Assembly: GCA_016184045.1 (NCBI GenBank) | Contig: JACPDM010000036.1 | Coordinates: 1-45,373 of the forward strand | Direction: 5' to 3' | Length of the DNA stretch: 45,373 bases | From: Micavibrio aeruginosavorus | GTDB taxonomy: Bacteria; Pseudomonadota; Alphaproteobacteria; Micavibrionales; Micavibrionaceae | In this document: positions 8,894 to 16,332 of the stretch, one piece after another | Numbering within the stretch: the first letter of the stretch is position 1 | How the letters are laid out: each line of letters opens with the position of its first letter | The notes under the pieces: generated by a model | Database searches by the model: none | The model's input: only the letters and a program-made list of their open reading frames with translations | Told to the model about the DNA's origin: nothing | Position numbers and translations under genes: made by a program

Positions 8894-9772
8894 CTATTTC
8901 AGCTTCGTCTTGGTCTGCGGGAAGGTTTTCCAGTATTCGCCTGTGCCTTTGCGGAGAACCCTGTCGCTGTCCAGAATCTCGAAAGGCGTGAATTGCGGCA
9001 GGGTTTTGTATTCCTCATAGAGCGGAACAAAGGGGCGCTCAAGGCACTCTTCGAACAGTTTTTCAAAGCTGTCGATGACGAAATAGGACGCCTGAAAATC
9101 GTCGATATAGTAGCCGGTGCGCAGAACCCGCTCCAGATCGAATTGCAGGTGGTTGGGCGAGGGGTCGTCGAGCGCATATCTTGCCTCCCCGTAGGACGAC
9201 ACGATGCCCGCGCCGTAAATCCTGATATCGTCGCCGTTGCGGATCAGGCCGAATTCGATGGTGTACCAGTTAAGCCGGGCCAGAAACTTGACGCCCTTGT
9301 GGGCAATCGCGTCCTGGCCAGCCTTGCCGTAGGCCTGCATGTAATCGGCATAAGCGGGATTGGTCAGCAGCGGCACATGGCCGAAAACATCGTGAAAAAT
9401 ATCAGGTTCTTCAAGGTAATCCAGCTCTTCCGGCTTGCGGATGAAATTCCCCGCAGGGAACTGGCGGTTTTCCAGCATGCTGAAAAACGGCTTGGAGGGG
9501 ATAAGGCCAGGAACCGCCACCACTTCCCATCCTGTCGCGGCGCGCAGGTTACGGTTCATGATCTCGAAATCGGGGACGCTGTCGGCGGAGAGGCCCAGCG
9601 TTTTCAATCCGGTAAAGTATTCGGAGCAAGCGCGGTTTTGCAAAACGTCCGTCTGGCGCGTGAACAATGCGCCCCATGTCGCGTGGTCTTGCGCGGTATA
9701 GTGGCCCCAGTTCTGGTCGATGATGCAGTCCTCGACACTTTGCGCCTGTAATACGGCATGCCCTTCGGCCAT
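8894..9772 (-). CDS. phhA: Phenylalanine 4-monooxygenase
   Basis: EPDIFHDVFGHVPLL iron-binding motif, WYTIEFGLI, IYGAGIVSSYGE. Confidence 0.95.
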   Translation of the reverse strand: MAEGHAVLQAQSVEDCIIDQNWGHYTAQDHATWGALFTRQTDVLQNRACSEYFTGLKTLGLSADSVPDFEIMNRNLRAATGWEVVAVPGLIPSKPFFSMLENRQFPAGNFIRKPEELDYLEEPDIFHDVFGHVPLLTNPAYADYMQAYGKAGQDAIAHKGVKFLARLNWYTIEFGLIRNGDDIRIYGAGIVSSYGEARYALDDPSPNHLQFDLERVLRTGYYIDDFQASYFVIDSFEKLFEECLERPFVPLYEEYKTLPQFTPFEILDSDRVLRKGTGEYWKTFPQTKTKLK

Positions 9773-9877
9773 TTTTTCCTCCCGTTTTTTCTCATTTTAG
9801 CGTATTTCCATCCCATTTACCAAAGGCGGCGGCCTGCGCTATGATGCGGGCATGAAAGGTGTTTTAAGGAAACTGCC

Positions 9878-10162
9878 ATGGAAATTCTCAAACCCTATCG
9901 TGTGCGCATTGATGCGCTGGATGACAGGATCGTCGATCTGCTGATCGAACGGATCGGAATTATTCGCGAAGTCGGCCATCTGAAGGCGCGGGAGAACATT
10001 CCAGCCGTCCTTCCCGACCGCGTTGTAGAAGTGCGCGAGCGCGCCGCAACGCGGGCGGCGATCAAGGGGCTCGACCCCGATCTGGTGCGGCAGCTTTACA
10101 CGATCCTGATCGATTACAGCTGCAACCTCGAAGAAGAAATAAAAAAAGAAAAAGCCGCGTGA
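9878..10162 (+). CDS. Chorismate mutase, AroQ class, monofunctional
   Basis: RIDALDDRIVDLLIERIGIIREVGHLKA...VYTILIDYSCNLEEE-type helical AroQ fold. Confidence 0.88.
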   Translation: MEILKPYRVRIDALDDRIVDLLIERIGIIREVGHLKARENIPAVLPDRVVEVRERAATRAAIKGLDPDLVRQLYTILIDYSCNLEEEIKKEKAA

Positions 10163-11499
10163 TGCACCAGCCCGATCTTTACGCAGAAGCGCAAATTTCT
10201 CCCGACATCCTGCAATCGCGCAAGGTCGCGCTGGCTTTGCTCGAAGTCGTGCTGGGGCGGCGCATGCCGCTGGACCAGGCGCTTGATGAGAACCGGGATT
10301 TGCCGAATCTTCCTGTGAGGGACCGCGCCTTCGTGCGGATGCTGGTGGCGACGACCCTGCGCCGTCTGGGGCAAATCGACGCCTTGATCCGGCAGGCGAC
10401 GGATCGCGGGGAGCCGCCGTCCCCGCCCGTCCTGCATCATATCCTGCGACTTGGTATCGCCCAGATTTTGTTCATGAACGTCCCCGATCATGCGGCGGTC
10501 GATACTGCCGTCCGGCTGGCGGAAACGGCGGGGCTGTCGCGGCAGAAAGGCTTCGTCAACGCCGTCCTTCGCCGCATCACGCGCGAGGGGCGCGACTGGC
10601 TCGCAAAACAGGATGACGCCCGCCTTAATCTTCCGGAATGGCTGATGAGCGTTTGGATCGCCGATTACGGCCTCAAAACCGCGGCGGATATGGCGCAGGC
10701 TTCTCTCAGCGAAGCGCCGCTTGATATTACCCTCAAAGACCCCGCGCATACCCTGCATTGGTCCGGGATGCTGGAAGCCTCGGTTTTGCCGACGGGCAGC
10801 TTGCGCCGCGCGGCGGGCGGGAATGTACAGGAACTCCCTGGCTATCATGACGGCATGTGGTGGATTCAGGATGCGGCCGCTGCCATTCCGGCAAAACTTT
10901 TCGGGCCGCTTCAGGGCAAAACCGTTGTCGATCTCTGCGCCGCGCCCGGCGGAAAATCGGCGCAGCTTGCCGCGGGCGGGGCCAGTGTGATCGCCCTTGA
11001 TCGTTCGGCCCGGCGCATTCAGCGGCTGGAAGAAAATATCCGCCGCTTGCGGCTTGATAAAAACGTCACGACCGAAGCCGCGGATGCCGCCGTGTGGAAG
11101 CCGAAAATCTGGGTCGATGCGGTCTTGCTCGATGCTCCCTGTTCGGCCACCGGGACCATCCGCCGCCATCCCGACGTGCTGCATGCCAAGACCCCCGAGG
11201 ACGTCGAAAGGCTGACGGAATTGCAGGCGCGTCTTCTTGAGAACGCGGCTTCGATGCTGGAGACAAGCGGAATTCTGGTATACTGCACCTGTTCGCTGCA
11301 AAAGGCTGAAGGCGAAGCGCAGATCGAATCTTTCCTGCACCACCATCCGGAGATGAAGCGCCTGCCGATCACGGCGGAGGACGTTCCCGGGGTGGAGGAA
11401 AGCCTGACGGCTGAAGGCGATTTGCGCATTCTGCCCATGCATCTTGCGGCGCATGGCGGCATGGACGGGTTTTATATCGCGCGGCTGGTCAAGGGCTAG
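10159..11499 (+). CDS. rsmB: 16S rRNA (cytosine(967)-C(5))-methyltransferase RsmB/Sun
   Basis: NusB-like N-terminus; VVDLCAAPGGKSAQL, LLDAPCSATGTIRRHPDV, LVYCTCSLQKAEGE. ATGA overlap with the chorismate mutase gene. Confidence 0.95.
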   Translation: MMHQPDLYAEAQISPDILQSRKVALALLEVVLGRRMPLDQALDENRDLPNLPVRDRAFVRMLVATTLRRLGQIDALIRQATDRGEPPSPPVLHHILRLGIAQILFMNVPDHAAVDTAVRLAETAGLSRQKGFVNAVLRRITREGRDWLAKQDDARLNLPEWLMSVWIADYGLKTAADMAQASLSEAPLDITLKDPAHTLHWSGMLEASVLPTGSLRRAAGGNVQELPGYHDGMWWIQDAAAAIPAKLFGPLQGKTVVDLCAAPGGKSAQLAAGGASVIALDRSARRIQRLEENIRRLRLDKNVTTEAADAAVWKPKIWVDAVLLDAPCSATGTIRRHPDVLHAKTPEDVERLTELQARLLENAASMLETSGILVYCTCSLQKAEGEAQIESFLHHHPEMKRLPITAEDVPGVEESLTAEGDLRILPMHLAAHGGMDGFYIARLVKG

Positions 11500-12428
11500 C
11501 CCGATCCGGCCCGCAGCAGGGCGGCGGCACGGGCCTTTTTAAATCTCTCCGGATCGACGGCCATGGCGACGGAAACATTCGGCGTTTGCGGTTCTTGGGG
11601 GCGTTTCTCCGCGATGCTCATTCCGGCTGTGTGCTCGCCCCTTGTTTCGACGACGATATCCATGTCCACCAGCGTGAACGCCGCCGGATCGATCAGGTAA
11701 AACGCTGCAATCGCATCGTAAACCAGCGCCCCTTTGGCCCCGCGCTTTTGGGCCATCTCATCGATGAAATGCGCCATCATGGCCGTCATGGGCCCGTGCA
11801 GCGGCGCGCCTTTCAGCGATTCGAAAAAATCAAGCGGCAAGGCATTGCTCATGCAGGGGTCGAGCGGGATCAGCGTTTTTTTCAAAGGCGCGCGCAGGAC
11901 GATATCCGCCGCTTCCGGGTCGATGAAAAAATTGAATTCCGCCATGCGGCTCATATTGCCGCAGACATCGATTGCGCCGCCCATAATCACGATATCGCGG
12001 ATCAGGCCTGGCAATTGCGGATCTTTCTGGAAGGCGCTGGCGATGTTGCTCAGCGGGCCGATGGCAAGCAATCGGATTTCTCCGGGATTGGCGCGCACGA
12101 TTTCGACGATTTTGTCGGCGGCAAGGGTATCGAGATCATAGCGCGTGGCGCGCATATCAATCCCCGCGATTCCATGCTCGCCATGGATCACGGCCTTGGC
12201 GAGTGGACGGGCGATGGGCCCGGCCTCCCCGGAATGGACGGGGATGTCGCGCCGCTTTGCCAGATCAAGGATAGCGCAGGCATTGCGGGTGACATTCTCT
12301 ATCGTGGAGTTCCCTGCCACCGTGGTTACGGCCAGAATATCCATTCCCGCCTTCCCAAGCAGCAGGAGCAGCGCCAGCGCATCGTCCGCGCCGGAATCGG
12401 TATCGATAATGATCTTGCTTGCGGTCAT
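11496..12428 (-). CDS. Inosine-uridine preferring nucleoside hydrolase family
   Basis: KIIIDTDSGADDALALLLLL, AIGPLSNIASAF, IVIMGGAI, AEFNFFIDPEAA. ATG at 12428 preferred. Confidence 0.93.
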   Translation of the reverse strand: MTASKIIIDTDSGADDALALLLLLGKAGMDILAVTTVAGNSTIENVTRNACAILDLAKRRDIPVHSGEAGPIARPLAKAVIHGEHGIAGIDMRATRYDLDTLAADKIVEIVRANPGEIRLLAIGPLSNIASAFQKDPQLPGLIRDIVIMGGAIDVCGNMSRMAEFNFFIDPEAADIVLRAPLKKTLIPLDPCMSNALPLDFFESLKGAPLHGPMTAMMAHFIDEMAQKRGAKGALVYDAIAAFYLIDPAAFTLVDMDIVVETRGEHTAGMSIAEKRPQEPQTPNVSVAMAVDPERFKKARAAALLRAGSG

Positions 12429-12485
12429 CGCGGGTTTTACTGCCTTCCGTACGGCATGATACAAAAAGCGCCCGGAAATTAAAGT

Positions 12486-12514
12486 TTGCCATTTTTGCCG
12501 CATCGCATTATAAA
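12486..12514 (+). promoter_or_regulatory. Sigma70-type promoter TTGCCA-17-TATAAA for the trp-type leader
   Basis: TTGCCA 12486-12491, 17-nt spacer, TATAAA 12509-12514; predicted start about 12521, on the leader ATG. Confidence 0.7.
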
Positions 12515-12520
12515 CGGAAC

Positions 12521-12598
12521 ATGGTCAAAATTCTGAACGCACAATCCCTGTCCTGGTGGCGCGCAACCGAAAAACGGTTCTGCGCCGATCACGTCTGA
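12521..12598 (+). CDS. Trp attenuator leader peptide MVKILNAQSLSWWRATEKRFCADHV (25 aa)
   Basis: ATG 12521, tandem TGG TGG 12554-12559, TGA 12596-12598; overlaps region 1:2 of the attenuator and apparently leaderless. Confidence 0.78.
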   Translation: MVKILNAQSLSWWRATEKRFCADHV

Positions 12599-12696
12599 TT
12601 TTACACCCCCTGTAAACGAAAGAATGATCGCCCCGGAACCAGAAATGGCCGGGTTTTTTGTTTTCTTCTGATCCCTGCATTTCCGGTTCCGGCGGC
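12554..12696 (+). promoter_or_regulatory. Trp-type transcription attenuator with competing stems
   Basis: 1:2 = GGCGC(12558-62)/GCGCC(12582-86) plus AACCG(12565-69)/CGGTT(12575-79), AAAAA loop. 2:3 = GGTTCTG(12576-82)/CGGAACC(12634-40). 3:4 = terminator 12632-12653 plus T6. Confidence 0.8.
12632..12659 (+). terminator. Intrinsic terminator (attenuator 3:4 stem)
   Basis: CCCGG-aa-CCA-GAAA-TGG-CCGGG followed by TTTTTT; no plus-strand gene immediately upstream other than the leader peptide. Confidence 0.82.
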
Positions 12697-12725
12697 TCCC
12701 TTGAACGAAACGAAGGAGACTCCGC

Positions 12726-13793
12726 ATGCAAACGAACCCGGCCTATGACATCCGGCAGGAATTTGGCGCTGACTATACGCCGGAAGTTAAACAGAAACTT
12801 GATTTTTCAAACGCCGAAAACCCGCTGGGCTGCTCGCCCGCGGCCGCCGGCGCAATCCGGCAATATGCCGGGATCGTCCATCACTACCCCGCGCTGTATG
12901 GCGACAGGCTGGCAGAAGCCTTGCGCGATCTGCATACGGCGACCTTGCCGGGCTTTGATATCCTCTGCACCGCCGGGGCGGGCGCGGGCATTCTCCTGTG
13001 CGTGCAGGCTTTTATAGCGCCCGGCGGCAATGTCGTCCTGCCAGAGTTGACATTTCCGCTTGCGGTTTGCGGCGCGACCATAATGGGAGGCGCAGGGCGC
13101 AAGGTCGCGGTCGGGAATGATCTGCGCCTTGATCTTGAGGCTCTGGCGAAGGCCTGCGATTCCGCAACCGGAATGATTTTCCTCTGCAACCCCAACAATC
13201 CTACCGGCGAAGTCATCCCGCCGGAACGCATTGTCGATCTGTGCGCAAGGGTCGATGTTCCGGTCGTGGTTTCGGAAGCCAATGCCGATTACGCCGGGAT
13301 CAGCCTTCTCGATCTTCCTGCGTTGCCGCGCAATCTGGTGATGATCCGGTCGTTTTCCAAAATTTACGGCCTTGCCGGGATGCGCGTCGGTTATATCGCC
13401 GCGCATGGCGATGTCATGCGCCGTTTGCGGCAGGCCTGCTGTCCATTCACTGTTGGCGTATTGGCAGAGCAGGCGGCGCTGGCGGCGCTTGCTGATACCG
13501 ATCACCTCAGGCGCAGCCGCGCCATGATGGACAGGCAGCGCGATCTGGTCACGCGCGGCCTGAAGGACATGGGGCTTGATGTCTTTCCGTCGCAGTCAAA
13601 CACGGTGTTTTTCCGTGCCCCGCAATCGTTCGGATCGGCATCTGAATTCGCGGCGCTTCTTCACGCGCTGGGGTGCAGTGTTGTGGATGGCGGGCATTTC
13701 TGCGAACGCGCGCGACATCATGTGCGGATCACGCCCAGAACGGAGAGGGAAAACGTCGATTTCCTCAACCTTGTCCAGGAGATCGCGTCATGA
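12726..13793 (+). CDS. PLP-dependent fold-type I aminotransferase, HisC/CobD-like
   Basis: DFSNAENPLG, FLCNPNNPTGEVIP, SFSKIYGLAGMRVGY (PLP Lys), HHVRITPRTERENVDFL. AAGGAG upstream of ATG. Confidence 0.9.
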   Translation: MQTNPAYDIRQEFGADYTPEVKQKLDFSNAENPLGCSPAAAGAIRQYAGIVHHYPALYGDRLAEALRDLHTATLPGFDILCTAGAGAGILLCVQAFIAPGGNVVLPELTFPLAVCGATIMGGAGRKVAVGNDLRLDLEALAKACDSATGMIFLCNPNNPTGEVIPPERIVDLCARVDVPVVVSEANADYAGISLLDLPALPRNLVMIRSFSKIYGLAGMRVGYIAAHGDVMRRLRQACCPFTVGVLAEQAALAALADTDHLRRSRAMMDRQRDLVTRGLKDMGLDVFPSQSNTVFFRAPQSFGSASEFAALLHALGCSVVDGGHFCERARHHVRITPRTERENVDFLNLVQEIAS

Positions 13794-14627
13794 TGACATC
13801 CGAAAACTCAAAGCTTTTTATCAAGGCCTTGCCGATGACGGGTGCAGATGATCGCGAAAGCGGAGCCGTCTTCTTTGGCACAGGTCTTGTAACGACAAAG
13901 GCTGTGTCGGAAGGTCTGCCGTTCGATTTTCTTTCGCTTGTCGCGGCGGCGGACATCATCCGGCAGCAAAGCCCTGCGCCGGGAATGATTGTGCAAGGCG
14001 ACAGCGCGCGGCATTGCGGATATTTTCGGCATTGCATCGTCCTATACAATTCTGCGCGGCAGCACTATCAAAAGCGACCATGCCCGCCAGGAGCTCATGG
14101 AAAAAACGCGGGAATATGCGGCAAAGGCAGGTCTGCCCCCGGGGGCCGAAGGCTATGTCATGGAGCAACTGGCTGATATGGCCTATCTGCGCCGCCGGTA
14201 TGGCGGGAAGGTCAAACTGTCATGGACGATGGCCCGCAACGAAAATGCGCTGGGCAAGGGGTTCGATGAATCGTTTTTCGACTGGCATTATCAGGCGTGC
14301 TTTTCCGGCGATCCGGATGTCGCGATCGATTTCGCCTATATCCAGCCCGGGCGCCGTCTTGATCCGAAAGCCAACCGCGCCTGCCCCTATACGGTTGTTG
14401 CGGGCGAGCCGCGCCTGCCCCTGCGCGCAGGGTTTAACCGGGCGGCCCTCTTGGAGAAAAGCGGTTTGACTTCCGTAAGCGAGACCTATCGCGAAGCTGT
14501 GCGTTATTGGGGCATGATTACGGATACGCTGGAATCTGTTTTCGACCTGAAGGGGATTCCGAAAAGTCACGATGAAGACCGCATCGATGCCCTGCAACGC
14601 CGTCTAGCGGCTGTTGTCTTGACATAA
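13790..14627 (+). pseudogene. Uncharacterised protein, translationally coupled to the aminotransferase; frame disrupted at a GC-dinucleotide run near 14004-14010
   Basis: Frame A MMTSENSKLFIKALPMTG...GMIVQGDSA continues in frame C as RGIADIFGIASSYTILRGS...; adding one GC restores DSARGIADIFGI (about 279 aa). ATGA overlap at 13790. Confidence 0.75.
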
Positions 14628-14666
14628 GGGAAGGTGCGCGGGGGCTTGCGTTCCGTCCCGGTTTGA

Positions 14667-14729
14667 TTAGTCTTGAGTGCATCAATGAATCGCCAGCAGA
14701 AAAAAGGCGATCGCGAACTGGGAGACTAA
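14667..14729 (+). other. Candidate structured 5' leader sequestering the Shine-Dalgarno of the downstream gene
   Basis: TTAGTCT(14667-73)/AGACTAA(14723-29) encloses ATCGCC(14689-94)/GGCGAT(14706-11); the GGGAGAC SD-like region lies in the outer stem. Confidence 0.4.
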
Positions 14730-14732
14730 AAA

Positions 14733-16274
14733 TTGGGACCGTCAAAGGGCTTTCTGGCCCGGCATTTTCATGCCGCCAGCCAGAATGGTTTTCTGCATTT
14801 TTTCAGGAAGAAACTTGTGGCCATGGGTTTGGCCCTGCCTCTTCTGGCCCTGCCCGCCGGGGGTGCCTTTGCGCAACCGGAATCCGCGCCGCCACGCGAT
14901 AACGAAGGTCCGCAAACCCGGTATTCCCAAATGGTGCAGGATTATAACAGCCGCTTTGCGGTGAGCAGCGCGGCGTACCGCCAGATTCTTTACATTGACC
15001 GCGATGACATTGCCGCGCGTATCGCTCTGATGCCCGGGGGAATGTCCGAAGCGGCAGCCATAACCAAGGCGGTTGAGGATTATGTTTTCGAGAAAAGCGG
15101 TTTTCGTCTTGATGAGCCTTATATCGCTCTGGTCGTCGAGGCGATGAATGCGGGCGCGGGGCAAGCCTTGCCGACGCCTTACAAGAGCAAGGATGGTGAT
15201 GGCGCGATCTGCCTGATAACCGGCCATAATCCGGATGTTGCCGTGCAAGAGCAGCAGCGGCGTATCATGGGGCTTTATCCCGGCATTCATGACGATTTCC
15301 GCAAGCGCCCTGTCCAGCGCAACCTGTCGCCGGATGTCATGGAGCGTTTTACCGATTATCATGAACTTGGGCATTGCATGGATCAGCATTACCTTCCCGT
15401 GTTCATGAGCGACAGCAACGCGCGTTACGATTTCAACAGGCAGCTTGCCCTGACTCATCAGTCGGAGGCCTATGCCGAGATTTTTGCAACCCTGATGCTG
15501 GCGCGGGACGGCGAAGCGGATATCGCCGCCATCCGGGCCGATCACCGGCTTGTCAGCATGGCGACCAACGGGTATTTGCTGGCGCAAATGGCGGGGTGGG
15601 ATCAGATTGAAAAATTTGTCGGCTATATTTATGCCCTGCATGAGGGATTGTGGGAGACGCAGCGCGAAATCGACCGCATCGGCCGCGACAAGATTCGCGC
15701 CATGACGCCGCAGGAACTGGCCGATATCGCCTATCAGGTGGCCGAGAAAGACGCCATGCGCCGCAAGGGGGCGGACTTTGCCGTCACATATTTGCTTGAG
15801 CATAAATTCGATCTTTCCGGGTGGGAGGAACTGCGTCATGAAGTCCCGCATATAGAGGCGGCCTATCAGATCGCAGTACAGGTGCGGGAACAGATCGTGC
15901 AGGCTTTCATCCGCACATTCGGGGCGGATGTTTTTGACCCCTCGCGCCCCGCCTATGCCCAGATTGTTCGCGATGTTCCGCCGGAATACTCCGTAGCCAG
16001 AGATGCCGCGGCAGTGGCTTCGGCGCGCGATCAGATGACGCGAACCTTGCTGGATGCGGCTGGCGGTCCGGGGGCGCGCGAAGTCGATATCCTGCGTGCA
16101 TCCGTCCGTGAGAAAGAGCGCCTGCGCGCGATCATCGATTCCCGGGCCCGCAGCGAAGGGGAGCGGGCGCAGGCCATGCTCGATCTTTTTGTCATGAGCG
16201 ACGCCATGCGTCAGGCCGTGACGGCGCTTCGCCCGCTGCAAGCCCCGGTGTTGATGCGGCTGAAAGTGGCTTGA
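14733..16274 (+). CDS. Putative secreted zinc metallopeptidase (HELGH), uncharacterised family
   Basis: Signal-like RKKLVAMGLALPLLALPAGGAFAQP; FTDYHELGHCMDQHY then SEAYAEIFATLMLARDGEAD. TTG 14733 is the listed start; ATG 14823 is the alternative. Confidence 0.7.
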   Translation: MGPSKGFLARHFHAASQNGFLHFFRKKLVAMGLALPLLALPAGGAFAQPESAPPRDNEGPQTRYSQMVQDYNSRFAVSSAAYRQILYIDRDDIAARIALMPGGMSEAAAITKAVEDYVFEKSGFRLDEPYIALVVEAMNAGAGQALPTPYKSKDGDGAICLITGHNPDVAVQEQQRRIMGLYPGIHDDFRKRPVQRNLSPDVMERFTDYHELGHCMDQHYLPVFMSDSNARYDFNRQLALTHQSEAYAEIFATLMLARDGEADIAAIRADHRLVSMATNGYLLAQMAGWDQIEKFVGYIYALHEGLWETQREIDRIGRDKIRAMTPQELADIAYQVAEKDAMRRKGADFAVTYLLEHKFDLSGWEELRHEVPHIEAAYQIAVQVREQIVQAFIRTFGADVFDPSRPAYAQIVRDVPPEYSVARDAAAVASARDQMTRTLLDAAGGPGAREVDILRASVREKERLRAIIDSRARSEGERAQAMLDLFVMSDAMRQAVTALRPLQAPVLMRLKVA

Positions 16275-16289
16275 GCGTCACTCTTAAAT

Positions 16290-16332
16290 TATGAAAACAA
16301 TAAAAACCGAAAACACCCCTGCAATAGGGGTG
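16290..16332 (-). terminator. Possible minus-strand intrinsic terminator
   Basis: Minus strand CACCCC-tattgca-GGGGTG followed by TTTTCGGTTTTTATTGTTTT; no supported minus-strand gene upstream. Confidence 0.35.

Follow-up and report, generated by a model that had tools for sequence, protein, structure and literature searches.

Genes and features at the locus

The window, the whole 45,373-nt stretch of Micavibrio aeruginosavorus DNA analysed here, lies within a 1.93 Mb assembly that is 81% complete. It contains a short leader followed by two genes, one encoding a HisC-like aminotransferase and the other an orphan protein, here called X. Both genes run in the same direction as the leader; the first has its own ribosome-binding site, and the second overlaps the end of the first through ATGA. 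The features are as follows.

12486-12514, + strand, candidate sigma-70 promoter TTGCCA-17-TATAAA, read from the sequence
12521-12598, + strand, leader ORF of 25 codons, MVKILNAQSLSWWRATEKRFCADHV, probably leaderless, from sequence reading and folding analysis
12554-12559, + strand, tandem Trp control codons TGGTGG, read from the sequence
12558-12586, + strand, 1:2 hairpin, -16.2 kcal/mol, starting inside the second Trp codon, from folding
12576-12640, + strand, 2:3 antiterminator, 12576-12582 with 12634-12640 plus 12586-12591 with 12625-12630, duplex -19.2
12632-12659, + strand, 3:4 intrinsic terminator, CCCGGAACCAGAAATGGCCGGG plus T6, -10.5 kcal/mol, from folding and a loose scan
12678-12692, + strand, fifth segment, CATTTCCGGTTCCGG, complementary at 14/15 positions to 12633-12647, 3:5 hairpin -25 to -33 kcal/mol
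12713-12718, + strand, Shine-Dalgarno AAGGAG of the aminotransferase gene, 7 nt before the ATG at 12726, read from the sequence
12726-13793, + strand, HisC-like PLP aminotransferase, 355 aa, from Pfam Aminotran_1_2 (6e-41), NCBIfam hisC and PDB
13790-14627, + strand, orphan gene X, start in an ATGA overlap with the aminotransferase stop, frame change near 14010

Candidate promoter and leader ORF

The candidate promoter consists of a -35 box at 12486-12491, a 17-nt spacer and a -10 box at 12509-12514, as an earlier sequence-only reading had it, and 10 of its 12 bases agree with the sigma-70 consensus, which is a consensus match only. It is missing from the list of the consensus promoter scan because the scan needs T as the final -10 base and this box ends in A. 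The end of the -10 box and the leader ATG at 12521 are separated by 6 nt, and if the promoter is used transcription would be expected to start at about 12521, the ATG itself. The leader ORF would therefore probably be translated from a leaderless message.

The ATG, the 25 codons, the Trp pair and the TGA at 12596-12598 all stand where they had been claimed, with the Trp pair as codons 12 and 13. Across 12 neighbouring proteins 0.65% of residues are Trp, which predicts two adjacent Trp codons in an ORF of this length in about 1 case in 1000. A loose scan for a short ORF with such a pair and a terminator-like hairpin behind it gave 10 matches in 836 kb, and this combination alone is thus not rare. 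It is the competing stems, their register and position, and the layout of the -10 box and ATG that set the leader apart, not the Trp pair or the terminator alone.

Competing RNA structures

The 1:2 hairpin begins on the second Trp codon, as proposed, and the stall site at 12554-12559 overlaps segment 1, whereas a ribosome at the TGA sits on segment 2 (12576-12591). The earlier claim of a 7-bp stem between segments 2 and 3 was right (12576-12582 with 12634-12640, including one G-U), and the real stem is stronger, continuing as 12586-12591 with 12625-12630 to give 7+6 bp and enclosing a 6-bp hairpin at 12600-12616. What had been described as an 8-bp terminator with a GAAA loop and T6 is present as a hairpin of 5+3 bp at 12632-12653, with an AA bulge and the GAAA loop, followed by T6 at 12654-12659. 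Segment 12634-12640 is common to the antiterminator and the terminator, and the two pairings are exclusive. Folding with part of the RNA masked gave the switch predicted for a ribosome that stalls at the Trp codons or covers region 2 from the stop codon: with the RNA masked through 12571 (stall; free from 12572) the 2:3 stem forms and the terminator does not, and with the RNA masked through 12608 (ribosome at the stop; free from 12609) the terminator forms.

The complete leader was equalled in 0/500 shuffles (z = -3.3). A 2:3 pairing as low was found in 1/2000 and a 1:2 hairpin in 29/2000, while the terminator hairpin by itself was equalled in 256/2000 and is not special alone. A chance arrangement, in which an ordinary intrinsic terminator follows untranslated sequence with an incidental 25-codon ORF and two Trp codons, would fit this unremarkable hairpin, the matches of the loose scan and a leader that has no confirming orthologue. 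It is nevertheless very unlikely, given that the rare 2:3 pairing overlaps exactly the 5' arm of the terminator, that the 1:2 hairpin starts in the second Trp codon with the stop placed to cover segment 2, and that 6 nt separate the -10 box from the ATG. There is also no upstream gene on the + strand that obviously needs a terminator: RsmB stops at 11499, and a - strand gene separates it from the leader.

The Rfam covariance search suggested in the sequence-only reading found no leader match at the gathering threshold or at E up to 1, the trp leader family included. An Rfam match to mir-465 on the minus strand was dismissed as chance, though it pointed to the 3:5 inverted repeat.

The fifth segment

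The segment at 12678-12692 pairs with the 5' arm and loop of the terminator, and an inverted repeat like it occurred in 0/150 shuffles. Together the two make a 15-bp inverted repeat whose second half lies shortly before the ribosome-binding site of the aminotransferase gene; a repeat check showed that it is not a repeat family within the window. Segment 5 is transcribed after the terminator and so cannot decide first-pass termination. In folds of the read-through RNA the 1:2 and 3:5 hairpins form together. Guesses at the role of segment 5 are that it stabilises the read-through mRNA, protects it or takes part in its processing.

Comparison with other leaders

The attenuator of the enterobacterial trp operon, represented by the Rfam trp leader, has the same four-segment logic and tandem Trp codons. 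The window leader differs from it in having no Rfam match, an ORF probably without a Shine-Dalgarno sequence and a target other than trpEDCBA. In the tna arrangement a Trp-containing leader lies upstream of an amino-acid-converting enzyme, which the arrangement in the window resembles. Nascent-peptide arrest of the TnaC type, in which free Trp and not its shortage is the inducer, is however highly improbable here: TnaC control involves a single Trp and Rho, and the window has tandem Trp codons, competing stems and an intrinsic terminator instead. A trp-type attenuator remains the preferred reading.

Another close known counterpart is trpL of Sinorhizobium meliloti (rnTrpL/peTrpL), the attenuator of trpE(G), whose transcript has been reported to begin directly with the leader ATG (PMC7298713). 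Consecutive Trp codons, exclusive antiterminator and terminator, and an RNA start at the ATG, predicted in the case of the window, are shared by the two. The trpL ORF has 14 codons, and its target is anthranilate synthase; the window leader has 25 codons and an extra 3:5 pairing, and it stands before the aminotransferase gene and X in a host that has no trpE. Chlamydial trp leaders have been proposed in Trp-requiring parasites with trp salvage genes as targets, and these leaders are disputed (PMC3937554, PMC7755916). They resemble the window in linking a leader to Trp where Trp synthesis is reduced, but no trp gene is involved here.

Among 30 trpE/pabB-type loci of the family and order, 29 have no leader with a Trp pair, and inheritance of the window leader from the family's own trpE is not supported. 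The one exception, in a genome of the same order (L115, positions 975-1110, genome G038), is a Trp leader, MTRMIPQLAPRAPFARTARIWWRI, upstream of a trpE(G)-type gene. Its leader at 1010-1084 has the Trp pair and a promoter layout of TTGACA-17-TTTCGA-6 nt-ATG, with the same gap between -10 box and ATG as the window. Its terminator, however, has a 5' arm that starts within the second Trp codon; stalling there would itself keep the terminator from forming, with no antiterminator needed, whereas the window leader has a separate predicted antiterminator. A scan for Trp-pair leaders before 41 aminotransferase relatives returned doubtful or misread cases only. Among these, L084 proved to be a reading of the wrong strand, L023 showed no terminator in the loose scan, and L090 has a TTG start and no terminator.

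The target operon

As the sequence-only reading stated, a PLP aminotransferase and an uncharacterised protein lie downstream; neither is encoded by a Trp biosynthesis gene. HisC is the nearest family of the aminotransferase, and its nearest solved chain is 3ly1, a putative HisC (2e-31), but its NCBIfam hisC score of 204 bits lies below the cut-off of 277. X gave no significant match in Pfam, NCBIfam, PHROGs or PDB sequences and is absent from the plasmids and viral contigs searched. Its frame changes near 14010 with a net shift of +1, the switch falling within a GCGCGCGG run (window 13990-14030). Both pieces match the same single relative, the X of another alphaproteobacterium (G103), and X is therefore one gene broken by a small insertion or deletion. 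The break may be real or an assembly error, and the operon could be decaying.

By eye, FGTG and Y..LQ motifs gave rise to the idea that X belongs with class Ic aminoacyl-tRNA synthetases or cyclodipeptide synthases. Neither is supported: for the synthetases the hhalign probability was about 1%, no higher than that of the aminotransferase control, and X has no Pfam match. The predicted structure of a 212-residue fragment of X was unusable (mean pLDDT 43).

Predicted tryptophan and histidine auxotrophy of the host

The TrpE N-domain, TrpA and histidinol dehydrogenase (HisD) are absent from 5/5 genomes of the genus, a set that includes two single-contig genomes that are 99% complete; absences in the window's own 81%-complete genome alone would be weak. 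Control genomes were positive, and most members of the family have TrpE and TrpA. The host is therefore predicted from its gene content to be auxotrophic for Trp and His. This pattern of marker-gene absence fits published Micavibrio, in which Trp and His synthesis is lost and there are no known amino-acid transporters (PMC3189940). With the three markers missing from the genus, neither the trp nor the his pathway explains the attenuator, and the case is the more unusual for it.

Genomic neighbourhood

Two congeners (G001 and G004) share with the window the genes for chorismate mutase, rsmB, rpe, a heparinase-like protein, radA and cvpA. Between rsmB and rpe the window has a nucleoside hydrolase gene, the leader operon and a gene for a protein with a HELGH motif, whereas the congeners have nothing or other genes. 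This variable segment (window 11496-16300; L172; L173) differs in gene content in each of the three congeners. The HELGH protein (14733-16274, 513 aa) carries a zinc-peptidase motif and has no Pfam or NCBIfam match. Genes for phenylalanine hydroxylase (minus strand) and chorismate mutase are neighbours at 8894-10162, about 3 kb upstream of the leader. No close relative of the aminotransferase gene was found in the congeners, and with the operon missing at their rsmB-rpe site it is either an accessory insertion or has been lost from them. Its base composition is not unusual.

Some of these observations bear on whether a real attenuator might control a conventional biosynthetic operon, with the enzyme serving the cell as HisC or as an aromatic aminotransferase and with Trp as no more than a cross-pathway signal. 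HisC as the best family and the chorismate mutase and phenylalanine hydroxylase genes about 3 kb upstream would suit such an arrangement. It is unlikely in view of the missing HisD, of a HisC score far below the cut-off and of congeners that lack a close relative of the enzyme though they share the nearby chorismate mutase and rsmB.

A second operon with X

The only other X found, that of G103, has 302 aa (E about 1e-9). Downstream of it stand a gene distantly similar to histidine racemases (NCBIfam 2e-15, far below the cut-off) and an M15 D-Ala-D-Ala dipeptidase-type gene. Upstream is a leader ORF, MLIRYITPIHPPRHAACAV, at L093 2221-2162 on the minus strand, in a leaderless layout of TTGACA-18-TATTGT-6 nt-ATG with the same -10-to-ATG gap as in the window. 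Hairpins of the 1:2, 2:3 and weak 3:4 kind lie before X at L093 2257-2094 (minus strand), as in an attenuator. It is plausible from this layout that the G103 X too stands behind a leaderless attenuator. Its candidate control codons are His, Pro or Arg, in one sequence only, and the agreement of His codons with the histidine-racemase-like gene downstream is suggestive only.

The X operons might form a new class, rare and concerned with amino-acid handling, in auxotrophic alphaproteobacteria, with a leaderless attenuator in front of each that switches it on when one particular amino acid runs short. The window would pair Trp codons with an aminotransferase, and G103 would pair His, Pro or Arg codons with an M15 dipeptidase and the histidine-racemase-like gene. 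The window operon would in that case sense imported or prey-derived Trp. This is a speculative extension that we think unlikely.

The proposed switch

Wherever the sequence allows a test, the structural predictions of trp-type ribosome-mediated attenuation hold. Anatomy, exclusive pairings and energies support such a reading, and from them we infer use of the promoter, leaderless translation, stalling and the response to Trp. RNA polymerase would start at about the leader ATG, with the ribosome trailing behind. When charged tRNA-Trp is ample the ribosome would pass TGGTGG to the TGA at 12596 and cover segment 2, allowing 3:4 pairing and a stop at T6 with an RNA of about 135-140 nt. When it is low the ribosome would stall at 12554-12559 and cover segment 1, leaving segment 2 free to take segment 3, so that no terminator forms and the operon is transcribed. 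In the read-through RNA segment 3 may move to segment 5, making a long hairpin before the aminotransferase ribosome-binding site.

No orthologous operon was found in 58 relatives or in 385 genomes of the class, 142 of the order and 399 of the phylum. The leader stands as a single sequence, and this absence of orthologues is the main limit on the attenuator reading. The switch is of a known kind and very probably functional as a Trp attenuator. There is good reason to regard the leader as a Trp-responsive ribosome-mediated transcription attenuator of the aminotransferase-X operon in a predicted Trp auxotroph. The mechanism is classical, whereas the gene set downstream, the auxotrophic host and segment 5 are new. 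Because the cell is predicted to be unable to make Trp, one guess is that the operon responds when imported Trp, perhaps taken from prey, runs short, and that it serves to salvage or convert some aromatic or Trp-related compound.

Trp attenuation is usually read as feedback on Trp synthesis. A full attenuator in a genus without the Trp pathway suggests that an auxotroph may use the switch to report its Trp supply and drive a different set of enzymes. If confirmed, the regulator would hint at the substrate class of the HisC-like enzyme and of the orphan X, and the attenuator would offer a readout of amino-acid hunger for bacteria unable to make their own.
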